NCBI GenBank assembly: GCA_025351825.1
Contig: JANXVE010000120.1
Location: 1 to 39,885 of the forward strand
DNA length: 39,885 bases
Direction: 5' to 3'
Origin: Chamaesiphon sp. 341R_metabat_111
Lineage (GTDB): Bacteria; Cyanobacteriota; Cyanobacteriia; Cyanobacteriales; Chamaesiphonaceae
Both the position numbers and the translations under genes were made by a program. Positions 5,508 to 38,559 of the stretch are shown here, piece after piece (within the stretch, counting starts at the first letter, position 1; the number at the start of each line of letters is the position of its first letter). The notes under the pieces are model-generated. The model had not been told where the DNA came from. It searched no databases and saw only the letters and a list, made by a program, of their open reading frames with translations.

Positions 5508-5572
5508 ATAGTTGATGTTGGAGATGATGTATAGATTTCTACCCCACCGTAGCCCTCCCCAAAGATGCGGGG

Positions 5573-5854
5573 CTACGGTGTATACACAAGTTGGATGGAT
5601 TTCGTTTCGAGATCTAGATCCCCCCTAGCCCCCCTTTTTAAGGGCTACCGTGTATACACAAGTCTGCTGGACTTCGTTTCTCGATCTAGATCCCCCCTAG
5701 CCCCCCTTAAAAAGCGGATGTGCGTACTGTTCGGGTTCCCCGACAGTTGAGCACACCAAGCGGGGGGGAACCGGATCCGGAAGTCCCCCTTTTTTAGGGG
5801 GATTTAGGGGGATCTCTAGAGTTTTCGCTTTTCTCCATACTTTATACACCATAG
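5573..5854. mobile_element. Type A MITE-like element, copy 1, with 11-bp target duplication
   Basis: A non-coding element with inverted ends (CTACGGTGTATACAC at the left, TATACACCATAG at the right), flanked by direct repeats AAGATGCGGGG at 5562-5572 and 5855-5865. Its left arm is present twice (from 5573 and again from 5645), and a 46-bp hairpin insert lies at about 5718-5763. The intact form is at 7854-8017. The apparent frame across it is only the repeat read as codons. Confidence 0.82.
5718..5763. repeat. Hairpin insert inside the type A element
   Basis: A 46-bp insert bounded by AAGCGG (5712-5717 and 5758-5763) that is absent from the other type A copy. It folds on itself: GTGCGTACTGTTCGGG pairs imperfectly with CCCCGACAGTTGAGCAC. 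It looks like a third, smaller repeat class. Confidence 0.6.
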
Positions 5855-7833: not shown

Positions 7834-8148
7834 TCTTGCCCCTCCCCTCGATCCTACGGTGTATACATAAGTCTGGAGAAAAGCGAAAACTCTAGAGATC
7901 CCCCTAAATCCCCCTTGAAAAGGGGGACTTCCGGATCCGGTTCCCCCCTTAAAAAGGGGGGCTAGGGGGGATCTAGATCTCGAAACGAAGTCCATCCAAC
8001 TTGTGTATACACCGTAGCCTTAGAAAGGGGAGGAGCTAAGTTGTCATTGACTACCTTTAAATCGATGAATGAATTCACCCTTGAAAATTGTTACTCTTGC
8101 TCCCTCCCCTTTCTAAGGGGAGGGCTGGGGTGGGGTAAAGATCTCCGC
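7834..8148. mobile_element. Type B MITE-like element, copy 2, split by a type A insertion
   Basis: In reverse orientation relative to 21391-21552. The right end GGGGTAAAGATCTCCGC (8132-8148) is the family terminal repeat, and 8023-8090 aligns with the reverse complement of the core at 21391-21552 (AAAGGGGAGGAGCTA, then CCCTTGAAAA). The left end is reduced to CCCCTCCCCT before the inserted element. Together with the type A insert this fills the gene-free stretch 7809-8165. Confidence 0.75.
7854..8017. mobile_element. Type A MITE-like element, copy 2 (164 bp, intact ends)
   Basis: Terminal inverted repeats CTACGGTGTATACATAAGT and ACTTGTGTATACACCGTAG bound a 164-bp non-coding core. The core contains runs AGGGGGA and GGGGGGCTAGGGGGG around the palindrome TTCCGGATCCGG. 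It is inverted relative to copy 1. No clean target duplication is visible here. Confidence 0.82.
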
Positions 8149-26687: not shown

Positions 26688-27058
26688 CGATCGAGCAGCT
26701 CAGAGTAGAGTTTACGAAAGTTTACATTCATTCTAAGCTATTTTTGGTAGGGAAAGTGAATAGGGGATCGGGAATAGAGGCTAGGGAGTAGAAAGCAGGG
26801 CGTATACCTCAGCATCCACAAGCATTTTGACCAATTTTAGTTGTTTGGATATTTAGGCGATCTGCACTAGATATACTCACATCTTGCACCAATGCATATC
26901 GACTAGTTCTAAGCATAGATTTTAGGGTACCCATTAAGGGCACCCTTACAAGTTACCTGTAGGGGTGCCCCTTGTGGGTACCCTAAAATCTATGCTTGGT
27001 ACTAATATTTCCGTACTAAAATAAGCTATGAGTATACCCATTCCCATTCCCCCATTCT
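26688..27058. other. Gene-free stretch between murI and sds
   Basis: Contains degenerate G-rich short repeats at about 26756-26805 (GTGAATAGGGGAT, GGGAATAGAG), then the hairpin element at 26911-26997. No ORF or RNA gene is supported. The sds promoter should lie near 26690-26750. Confidence 0.55.
26911..26997. repeat. 87-bp inverted-repeat element, copy 2
   Basis: A 23-bp perfect terminal inverted repeat (outer part AAGCATAGATTTTAGGG and its complement), followed inward by AAGGGCACCC with GGGTGCCCCTT. It is the better-preserved copy of the element at 970-1055. Flanks show shared ACTAGT/TACTAAT-like bases, so true ends may lie a few bases further out. Confidence 0.87.
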
Positions 27059-36086: not shown

Positions 36087-36731
36087 CTAATTACTAATCA
36101 TCGAAATCAGATAACCGCACTGATGTTCGCCATCGACAATCCAGTGAGTGCGTTCTACATGGCAATCTGGCAACGCCGCTGCAAACATTTCTAGTTCGTG
36201 TCCACAGACAGCCGGAAAAGACGCTGCAACCTGAGAGATAGCACAGTTATGTTCGGTGAGGATGAATTTATCATTTCGATCGTCCACGGCATGATAGTCA
36301 GCCATATAACCCTCTTGGCGGCGTAATTCAACTAGCTTGGCAACTCGATCGATCAACACCCCATTTCCCAACTTCTCACGATAGTCAATGCTCTTTTTTT
36401 GCCAGTGGTGATGAAGCATCTTCGCTGCTTGCTCGTATCCCAGGTTCTCAACCAGGGTATCGAGAAACGAAATCGCAAACCTGTCGTACTGATTGGGAAA
36501 CCTGTCCCGCCCTTTTTGACTAAGCTGATAGATATGTTGGGGTCTACCTGTGCCCGAAGAAACTGACTGATAGGCAATTAAACCCTCCGTCTGTAAGTCT
36601 TTGAGATGACGACGCACAGCTTGGGGACTAATATCCATTACTGTGGCTAAGTCTTGAGCAATCGCTCGATCCTGTTTCAGAAGATATTCCAGGATATCCT
36701 GCTTGGTAGAAGTATGCTGCTCTGCGATCAT
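36087..36731 (-). CDS. sufR: SufR, iron-sulfur cluster-binding repressor of suf genes
   Basis: A DNA-binding repressor that senses iron-sulfur status and represses the sufBCDS operon and itself. The N-terminal helix-turn-helix is at about 9-70 (ILEYLLKQDRAIAQDLATVM, ISPQAVRRHLKDLQTEGLI, with the wing SSGTGRPQHIYQLS). Four cysteines at residues 163, 176, 190 and 205 form C-x12-C-x13-C-x14-C, the spacing described for SufR cluster binding. The 214-residue length fits. It is divergent from sufB, and the shared region has a perfect CAAC-N6-GTTG operator and an imperfect second one. A 60-bp inverted-repeat arm begins eight bases upstream of its ATG, so the transcript leader is unusual. The 80-residue gene follows in the same operon. 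Confidence 0.95.
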   Translation of the reverse strand: MIAEQHTSTKQDILEYLLKQDRAIAQDLATVMDISPQAVRRHLKDLQTEGLIAYQSVSSGTGRPQHIYQLSQKGRDRFPNQYDRFAISFLDTLVENLGYEQAAKMLHHHWQKKSIDYREKLGNGVLIDRVAKLVELRRQEGYMADYHAVDDRNDKFILTEHNCAISQVAASFPAVCGHELEMFAAALPDCHVERTHWIVDGEHQCGYLISMISN

Positions 36732-36738
36732 ATCAGTT

Positions 36739-36798
36739 TAAAATCCCCTCCCAGGAGGGGTGCCCGTAGGGTGGGGTGGGTAGATCTACGCACCAACT
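36739..36798 (-). repeat. Left arm of the 60-bp inverted repeat (half type B element)
   Basis: On the minus strand it reads AGTTGGTGCG...GGGGATTTTA and equals the right arm at 36946-37005 with two mismatches in 60. It starts eight bases from the sufR start codon, so it lies in the sufR leader. It carries the hairpin CCCCTCC/GGAGGGG. Confidence 0.88.
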
Positions 36799-36839
36799 CA
36801 AGTAGATATAAAACTTTTTAGTTAATTTAATGACTTTGA

Positions 36840-36853
36840 CAACAACTTAGTTG
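36840..36853. promoter_or_regulatory. SufR operator, perfect CAAC-N6-GTTG
   Basis: CAACAACTTAGTTG, an exact match to the published high-affinity SufR inverted repeat, inside a wider palindrome AACAACTTAGTTGTT. It lies in the sufR-sufB divergent region, as expected for control of both genes. Confidence 0.85.
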
Positions 36854-36879
36854 TTAAAGTATCTTAGAATATAGTTAAA

Positions 36880-36893
36880 CAATTAACCAGTTG
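36880..36893. promoter_or_regulatory. Second, imperfect SufR operator
   Basis: CAATTAACCAGTTG differs from CAAC-N6-GTTG by one base, within AACAA...TTGTT arms, exactly 40 bp from the first site. A second weaker site is also described in Synechocystis. Confidence 0.7.
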
Positions 36894-36945
36894 TTTTAAG
36901 TATATGATATTTTGTCTGCACTAGTGGACTTCATGCCTAGCTTTT

Positions 36946-37005
36946 ATAGTTGGTGCGGAGATTTACCCACCCCACCCTACGGGCACCCCTCCTGGGAGGG
37001 GATTT
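36946..37005 (+). repeat. Right arm of the 60-bp inverted repeat
   Basis: 58 of 60 bases match the reverse complement of 36739-36798. It lies in the sufB leader in the same sense as the left arm lies in the sufR leader, and is also the left half of the type B element at 36953-37063. Confidence 0.88.
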
Positions 37006-37063
37006 TACCCCAGACGAGGATCGAAAGCCCCCTTTACAAGGGGGTTGGGGGTAAAATCTCCGC
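36953..37063. mobile_element. Type B MITE-like element, copy 4, in the sufB leader
   Basis: Terminal inverted repeats GCGGAGATTTACCC and GGGTAAAATCTCCGC, with two inner hairpins (CCCCTCC/GGAGGGG and CCCCCTT/AAGGGGG). It separates the SufR operators from the sufB start codon by about 230 bases. No coding capacity. Confidence 0.82.
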
Positions 37064-37119
37064 AGCAGCACCAAATTAATATAATTCCATCCTTATTCTA
37101 GAGAGAACACAGGCGATCG

Positions 37120-38559
37120 ATGAGCACTATAGTACAAAACTTAGTTAATCAACCCTACAAGTACGGCTTTGTGACTGATATTGAATCAGACCAAATTCCT
37201 CGTGGTTTGAACGAGGACATCGTGCGGTTGATTTCATCCAAGAAGGATGAGCCAGAATTTTTGCTCAACTTTCGCCTGAGAGCCTATCGCCAGTGGCTGA
37301 AGATGACCGAGCCAACTTGGCCCCATGTGGACTATCCCACGATCGATTACAACGATATCATCTATTACTCCGCACCCAAACAAGCCGCCAAGAAATTGGA
37401 TAGTTTGGATGAAGTCGATCCTGTGTTGCTCGAAACCTTTGAGAAATTGGGGATTTCCCTCAATGAGCAAAAACGGTTGTCGAACGTCGCTGTCGATGCG
37501 GTATTTGATAGCGTCTCGATCGGCACCACCTTTAAGGCACAATTAGCCAAAGAAGGCGTGGTATTCTGCTCGATTTCCGAAGCTGTCAAAGAATATCCCG
37601 AACTAATCGAAAAATACTTGGGAAGTGTGATCCCGATCGCCGATAATTTCTTTGCAGCCTTAAACTCTGCCGTATTTAGCGACGGTTCCTTTGTCTACAT
37701 CCCTAAAGGCACCAAATGCCCGATGGATTTATCCACCTATTTCCGCATCAATACCGGAGATAGCGGACAATTCGAGCGGACACTCATCATCGCCGATGAA
37801 GGTGCTTCCGTTACCTACCTTGAAGGCTGTACCGCACCCGCATTCGATACCAATCAACTCCACGCCGCCGTCGTCGAATTGGTGGTGTTGGACAACGCCG
37901 AAATCAAATATTCCACCGTCCAAAACTGGTACGCTGGCGATGAAACGGGCAAAGGTGGCATCTACAACTTCGTCACCAAACGCGGCTTGTGTAAAGGTGT
38001 AAATTCCAAGATTTCGTGGACGCAAGTAGAAACAGGTTCGGCAATTACCTGGAAATATCCCAGTTGCGTCTTAGTAGGCGACAATTCCGTCGGTGAATTT
38101 TACTCAGTCGCGCTGACTAATAATCTCCAGCAAGCCGACACCGGAACTAAGATGATCCACGTTGGTAAAAATACCCGCAGTACGATTATTTCTAAAGGAA
38201 TTTCCGCCGGAAAATCAAAGAATAGCTATCGCGGTTTAGTCAAAATGAATCCAACCGCAAAAGGAGCGAGAAATTACTCCCAATGTGACTCGATGCTAAT
38301 TGGAGATCGAGCGCAGGCGAATACTTTCCCGTATATCCAAGTTCAGAATCAAACCGCTAAAGTCGAACACGAAGCCTCAACTTCTAAAATTGGTGAAGAT
38401 CAATTATTCTTCTTCGCTCAACGGGGAATTTCTCAAGAGGATGCAATTTCGATGATGATTAGTGGTTTCTGTAAGGATGTCTTCAATCAGTTACCGATGG
38501 AATTTGCAGTCGAAGCTGACAGACTTCTGAGTCTGAAGTTGGAAGGTACTGTGGGTTAA
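37120..38559 (+). CDS. sufB: SufB, iron-sulfur cluster scaffold subunit
   Basis: Part of the SufBCD scaffold that assembles Fe-S clusters, the main pathway for photosystem I clusters in cyanobacteria. The 479-residue length and sequence are typical: [20 protein letters not shown] near the start, then the long beta-helix with [20 protein letters not shown], and [20 protein letters not shown] before the conserved C-terminus ([19 protein letters not shown]). The cysteines and the EDQLFF region expected for cluster assembly are present. The start ATG at 37120 fits relatives. It is divergent from sufR. Unusually, sufC, sufD and sufS do not follow; a repeat hairpin and minus-strand ORF come next, so sufB seems to be separate from the rest of the operon. 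Confidence 0.97.

Follow-up and report, generated by a model that had tools for sequence, protein, structure and literature searches.

Inverted copies of a dispersed G/C-rich repeat of the intrastrand-triplex type flank the SufR operators between sufR and sufB in a Chamaesiphon genome

Two near-identical inverted arms frame the SufR operators between sufR and sufB in this Chamaesiphon genome. The most probable reading, to which we give a probability of roughly 0.7, is that they are inverted copies of a high-copy cyanobacterial repeat with a G/C-rich core of the intrastrand-triplex type, and that any effects on the suf genes would be incidental and lineage-specific, the arms being no conserved paired regulator.

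The sufR-sufB region

By searching the window, i.e. the whole stretch of 39,885 nucleotides that was analysed, we found sufR and sufB in divergent orientation with CAAC-N6-GTTG sites between them, which is the arrangement of a SufR divergon. A SufR match was present in 59 out of the 60 genomes searched, this genome included. As described in PMC7058544 (citing Shen et al. 2007 and Seki et al. 2006), sufR and sufBCDS are likewise divergent in cyanobacteria, and SufR represses both sufBCDS and itself. The features of the locus are as follows.

36087..36731, minus strand: sufR, the repressor gene (NCBIfam TIGR02702 SufR_cyano, 318.5 bits, cut-off 178.8)
36739..36798, minus strand: left arm, a unit of the dispersed repeat, in sense towards sufR and in the predicted sufR leader
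36745..36779, plus strand: G-rich (class II type) triplex motif of the left arm, from sequence and motif count, with CCCCTCC (36745-36751), loop CA, GGAGGGG (36754-36760), linker (36761-36772) and third strand GGGGTGG (36773-36779)
36799..36947: spacer with both operators and, putatively, both promoters
36840..36853, between the arms: SufR-type operator CAACAACTTAGTTG, exact CAAC-N6-GTTG
36880..36893, between the arms: second SufR-type operator CAATTAACCAGTTG, one mismatch
36948..37007, plus strand: right arm, another unit of the dispersed repeat, in sense towards sufB and in the predicted sufB leader
36967..37001, minus strand: G-rich triplex motif of the right arm, from sequence and motif count, reading on the plus strand CCACCCC (36967-36973), linker (36974-36985), CCCCTCC (36986-36992), loop TG and GGAGGGG (36995-37001)
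37028..37067, plus strand: a different, palindromic, second triplex-like repeat (CCCCC..GGGGG-TT-GGGGG, then TAAAATCTCCGC) in the sufB leader, where it follows the right arm and precedes the sufB start
37120..38559, plus strand: sufB (NCBIfam NF008773, 892.4 bits)

The arms are inverted repeats of 60 nt that agree at 58 of 60 bases (97% complementary) across a spacer of 149 nt. The original prediction had recognized this pairing, as well as the two operators inside it, but had set the right arm two bases too low and the spacer at 147 nt. It was also right in giving each arm a CCCCTCC/GGAGGGG hairpin (36745-36760 and 36986-37001). In sufR, 13 bases lie between the hairpin and the ATG and seven between the arm and that codon. 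The strand carrying the triplex motif is the template strand of sufR in the left arm (plus) and of sufB in the right arm (minus). Predicted RNA folds of the arms have energies of -19.8 and -19.5 kcal/mol, and an Rfam scan of the whole window gave no match at the gathering score.

The same-sense placement of the element in both leaders holds, and the gap of L046, from the same family, speaks for its transcription. This gap is only 116 bp long, contains both operators, and its operator core aligns inside the suf spacer. Promoters of such a kind would accordingly lie between the arms, which in turn should put both arms in the leaders. The arms thus probably enclose both promoters, and both are probably transcribed. 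For Synechocystis, PMC7058544 describes two sufB promoters (P1 and P2), of which SufR acts on P1, so that a second transcript could begin downstream of an arm. A promoter scan of 36600-37200 gave one match, between the arms and towards sufB, which is no more than in shuffled sequences. A cruciform of the arms around the operators, also proposed originally, is possible.

Other repeats were observed elsewhere in the window. Long inverted repeats (74-89 nt, 83-99%) at 5571-5842 and 7869-8033 bracket about 2 kb with open frames of 255 and 127 aa. A further palindrome family, GTAGGGGTGCCC..GGGTACCC, is represented at 26904-27004 by a 50-nt inverted repeat whose arms are 1 nt apart and by a second copy at 1007-1064, with similar sequence in L150 and L173.

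A dispersed repeat family

Each suf arm is a copy of a dispersed repeat unit of about 54 bp, with the consensus GTNGCGGAGATCTACCCACCCCGCCCTACGGGCACCCCTCCNNGGAGGGGATTT. A query of the genome with one arm returned at least 52 matches (40 out of 75 candidates scored), and an iterated profile identified at least 56 copies in 38 sequences, namely the window and 37 stretches around matches. This figure is a lower bound, as it derives from 40 of the 75 candidates and the core pattern also matches outside those stretches. The arms are thus copies of a repeat of the mobile type, as had been suspected, and it is because both belong to one family that they match each other far beyond chance. The unit was found in all nine Chamaesiphon genomes searched and, weakly, in one out of four genomes of other families (best E 2.9e-4). 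A 28-base core pattern, allowing up to one mismatch, occurs in 32 of the 291 genomes of the class, at 1 to 52 places each, while the reversed pattern, used as a control, was absent among the matches listed. In the literature on small repeats of Chamaesiphon and cyanobacteria, MITEs, REPs and BoxC/intrastrand triplexes, the titles and abstract openings listed held no account of the unit, though an earlier description is possible; a search with the 10-mer GGGGTGCCCG gave, by title and among the matches listed, no paper on cyanobacterial repeats.

Among the 56 copies the two suf arms are each other's nearest relatives, with an identity of 0.963 over the unit, and only 8 out of 1540 unit pairs are as alike or more so. 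This points to local copying or conversion, and the two arms look, suggestively, as if they had been locally homogenised. Neighboring units no more than 600 bp apart form 17 pairs, against 0.45 expected for 56 random positions. Thirteen of these are inverted (in 13 loci) and four direct (in two loci); of the inverted ones, seven are of the suf type, with units pointing outward, and six point inward. Inverted pairs as a group are not unusually alike: their mean identity is 0.799, that of all unit pairs is 0.807, and the value of the inverted pairs was attained in 127 of 2000 pairings made by reshuffling.

Gene context was scored from open reading frames with codon scores, independently of annotation. 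Of the 56 units, 49 could be placed in gaps flanked by two genes and five fall within open frames, while two have no neighbor in their stretch. Where a gap has one stop and one start codon, the stop is the closer of the two for 25 out of 38 units, and 22 out of 38 run in the sense of the genes. Of the scored pairs, that at suf alone has its two units in a gap flanked by two start codons. The five copies in long open frames are found in L150:825-1774 (frame 3-2699, minus), L146:1522-1573 and L153:1530-1579; L150 has three copies in a single 899-codon frame that runs through the whole stretch. Such units would be translated, e.g. as PLRGGVPEGGGG and DLPTPPYGHPSQEG.

The tendency of the units to lie nearer stop codons (one-sided p 0.036) speaks for the possibility that they are attenuators, the C/G hairpin and the ATTTT after it terminating transcription in each leader. 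An A and at least three Ts do follow the hairpin in 46 of the 56 copies, but in 42 of the 56 the tract has only three to four Ts after the A, and a terminator scan that requires five Ts in eight positions reports neither arm. Together with the orientation of the units, which has no clear bias towards the sense of the gene, this makes attenuation very improbable.

Three-stranded core

Read on its G-rich strand, the unit has the order CCCCTCC-NN-GGAGGGG-TGCCCNNNGGGC-GGGGTGG. The last segment mirrors GGAGGGG with a T opposite the A, as an antiparallel purine-motif triplex requires, the pairing rules of this motif being AAT, GGC and TAT (PMC4666352). Forty-five of the 56 copies have the perfect 7-nt triad CCCCTCC/GGAGGGG/GGGGTGG. 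The other 11 consist of five with a 6-nt stem and a 4-nt loop, one with a long first loop, and five with a mismatch or truncation; six of the 11 keep a stem of at least 6 nt and the full third strand. In all 45 perfect triads the first loop is 2 nt and the second 10-14 nt long (12 nt in the suf arms). Measured against the rules of the triplex finder ITxF, three compatible strands of 6-15 nt with an antiparallel third are present in the same number of units (45 of 56), but the second loop exceeds the 1-6 nt that the finder allows for both loops.

Conservation follows the three strands closely. In an alignment of 53 of the 56 copies (a copy with a long loop, a truncated copy and the central unit of a direct array were omitted), column entropy is 0.00, 0.10 and 0.04 bits in the strands, compared to 1.84 in the hairpin loop, 1.05 in the 5' flank and 0.72 in the linker loop. 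As the copies are related by descent, this conservation may partly reflect recent spread. Pair counts on the alignment are equivocal. Stem positions are paired in 95.7% of cells against 95.2% in shuffles (3 of 500 shuffles as high), and two pairs have changes on both sides (82 of 500 as high). The covariation score is below that of shuffles (497 of 500 as high) because most stem positions are invariant.

A similar tendency is seen in hairpins with asymmetric pyrimidine/purine stems. An antiparallel third strand accompanies 67 of 144 such hairpins in this genome (counted per strand), and a parallel control strand 19; for 80 loci of relatives, the corresponding numbers are 24 of 54 and 7. One case is the stem GGGGAGG, which has the correspondingly shifted third strand GGTGGGG. 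These counts stem from few repeat families and amount to a handful of independent cases. The linker may itself form a hairpin: with G-T pairs allowed, at least 3 bp can form in 24 of 25 distinct linkers (14.1 in shuffles) and at least 4 bp in 18 of 25 (2.9 in shuffles), an excess that is inflated by common descent. Taken at the level of sequence, these features suggest that the core may fold as an intrastrand triplex.

The G-rich strand could instead form a G-quadruplex, as the common form has four G-runs (GGGG, GGG, GGGG and GGG), the first loop between runs being 8 nt, just over the usual limit of 7. None of the 56 G-rich strands matches runs of G3 with loops of 1-7 nt, although a looser limit would admit the common form. 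The C-rich stem, for which a quadruplex has no need, stands at zero entropy, and the copies with a CAGGC linker lose one G-run but keep the triad. We regard the quadruplex as hardly probable.

The suf gap across Chamaesiphon

The comparison with close relatives that had been called for was carried out on the eight Chamaesiphon genomes with a readable sufR-sufB gap, this one included (G003, whose sequence ends 53 bp upstream of sufB, was left out). The arms turned out to be patchy, whereas none of the eight gaps lacks an exact operator; a second operator with up to one mismatch is found in six, L043 and L044 being the exceptions. A full unit occupies the sufR leader in three of the eight (this genome, L040 and L042), and full same-sense units occupy both leaders in this genome only. 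In the sufB leader, L040 has a shortened same-sense unit that lacks the C-rich half of the hairpin (E 5e-7), and L042 has a different repeat. L015 has a single full unit, in the sufB leader and in the opposite orientation, and the remaining four (L039, L041, L043 and L044) have none; in L043 the sufB leader holds a repeat of another kind. Looking beyond this genome, at least one operator with up to one mismatch occurs in all 90 distinct intergenic regions between sufR and sufB, compared to only three with the unit, all of them from Chamaesiphon. The flanking repeats are thus no part of the known SufR system as described.

The spacer between the arms occurs once in the genome (E 0.02 for the best match elsewhere) and is, judging from its sequence, older and common to relatives. 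L039, L041, L043, L044 and L015 all have a sufR leader without an arm, and because this form extends to L015, L043 and L044, we take it as the older state. In a tree of sufR and sufB, the armless L039 and L041 group with L040 and L042 at only 67%; support for the key nodes is 66-67%, leaving the gain of the arms undated.

These data bear most directly on the proposal of matched post-transcriptional control, in which hairpins in the two RNA leaders would tune translation or stability and thereby match the repressor to its target. The sufR hairpin ends 13 nt before the ATG, its 3' side contains a Shine-Dalgarno-like GGAGG, and wherever the sufR leader carries the unit (three genomes), the hairpin is intact. 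The same sense of the units in both leaders of this genome fits as well, and the same-sense units of L040, one of them shortened, mildly favor the idea. However, the GGAGG sits 15 nt from the sufR ATG, which is too far for a normal Shine-Dalgarno sequence. The shortened unit of L040 has no hairpin, the orientation in L015 is reversed, and the full same-sense pair remains confined to one genome in eight, with half of the eight having no unit at all. The unit furthermore adjoins many unrelated genes, and is more often nearer their stops, as described above. The comparison thus gave no support to matched control as a conserved function, and we consider leader elements of this kind unlikely; a shared control switch is probably not what the suf arms are.

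Pair loci in other species

Four other loci with inverted pairs (L149, L151, L141 and L142) were compared with five Chamaesiphon genomes (G001, G002, G004, G006 and G008). At three of the four, some relative has a short palindrome instead of the pair, i.e. AAATCCCCTCCCTGGAGGGAATTT at the L149 site in G001, AAAATCCCCTCTTGGAAGGGGATTTT at the L151 site in G008 and, for L141, which is of the inward type, a perfect palindrome centred on GGCGGAGATCTCCGCC in G001, where both flanks are matched. A similar, imperfect palindrome is found for L141 in G008, with only the left flank matched, while G004 has one partial unit there, and G002 and G006 have neither unit nor palindrome. Flanks matched on one side only in three relatives at L149 and in four at L151; for L151, the 250 bases read alongside these matches contain no remnant. 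The palindromes could stem from loss of the pair or mark insertion at an existing palindrome.

At L142, the orthologous pair is kept in G004 with different linkers, while in G001, G002, G006 and G008 the sequence is a different one, in which the profile detected no unit. The orthologous site (L179, L180, L181 and L182) holds different sequences in different species, some of them repeat-like, which gives the impression of a landing site for repeats.

Comparison with known systems

The closest likeness is to the E. coli repeat known as BoxC, PIT or TM_ECO (Holder et al. 2015, PMC4666352), which is described as a C-rich stem, a loop, a G-rich stem, a loop and an antiparallel second G-rich strand. 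It too is dispersed, of the G/C-rich class II type, and forms inverted pairs, the 23 copies of E. coli MG1655 including five of them. Parts of pairs are missing in related strains, where a hairpin is left (PMC4666352), which resembles the short palindromes at three of the four pair loci above. The same source reports that G/C-rich triplex motifs are abundant in some cyanobacteria. The unit differs in its 7-nt rather than 9-nt stem, its 2-nt first loop and its sequence. The second loop has its own hairpin, which the loop rule of the finder leaves no room for. TM_ECO is described as always intergenic, in contrast to the five copies of the unit inside open frames, and its pattern in PMC4666352, CCCTCNCCC-N3-6-GGGNGAGGG-N3-GGGNGAGGG, matched none of the 56 units on the G-rich strand with no mismatch allowed. 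As pattern, loop limit and strictly intergenic position all differ, we call the unit a variant and not a member of TM_ECO. For the probed E. coli site, PMC4666352 describes a polymerase stop only, with no protection in in vivo footprints, and its authors saw nothing to suggest that the motif generally acts in gene expression.

REP and BIME elements, i.e. GTAG-tagged REPs with a RAYT transposase, resemble the unit in being short, palindromic, mostly extragenic and paired in alternating orientation. GTAG REPs are reported from cyanobacteria (PMC3733652), and GTAG is the commonest first tetranucleotide of the unit (8 of 56). Yet the other 48 start differently, so that there is no constant GTAG head. 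The genome, a draft of 202 contigs, has two Y1_Tnp genes, and no unit occurs in the 3.2-3.3 kb around either (L156 and L157), which leaves the family with no linked Y1 transposase found. We therefore think a REP origin highly unlikely.

The original prediction had seen a MITE duplicated into both leaders. Its repeat copies are confirmed, but an intrastrand-triplex repeat fits better than the MITE label. The unit shares with MITEs, such as Nezha in cyanobacteria (PMC3733652), the nature of a small, non-coding, dispersed element, and some of its inverted pairs are found in one species and lacking, as entire blocks, in another. What sets the suf pair apart from MITEs is its interior, which appears to be older host sequence. 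No clean target-site duplication was seen at unit pairs absent as a block in a relative, and the transposase search covered Y1 only.

Discussion

The reading that we favor is thus a structural one. A repeat core ordered as C-rich stem, 2-nt loop, G-rich stem, hairpin-clasped linker and second G-rich strand mirroring the stem would have entered the leaders of sufR and sufB within part of Chamaesiphon, around an older region of SufR operators and promoters. As DNA, the arms would be prone to form structures, to pause polymerases and to rearrange, and the strand able to fold as a purine-type triplex would be the template strand of each leader; as RNA, they would give each leader a short C/G hairpin. 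They would have no dedicated job at suf, being resident copies of a structure-prone repeat.

A bolder extension, which we rate as very unlikely, would make the unit a distinct triplex class of several cyanobacterial families, its second loop clasped by a hairpin. The mirror pair at suf would then bracket the operators, and transcription would fold the templates at both edges into a 149-bp topological domain in which sufR and sufB are coupled by supercoiling. If the arms recombined, the segment could moreover be inverted and the promoters exchanged.

Under the favored reading, what looked like a regulatory oddity becomes a structure-prone repeat residing in an important regulatory region. Cyanobacteria would gain a sequence-defined repeat of the triplex type, with a clasped second loop that the loop rule of the published finder excludes. 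Lastly, the replacement of pairs by short palindromes in relatives would make Chamaesiphon a test bed for how repeats may reshape intergenic regions and leaders.
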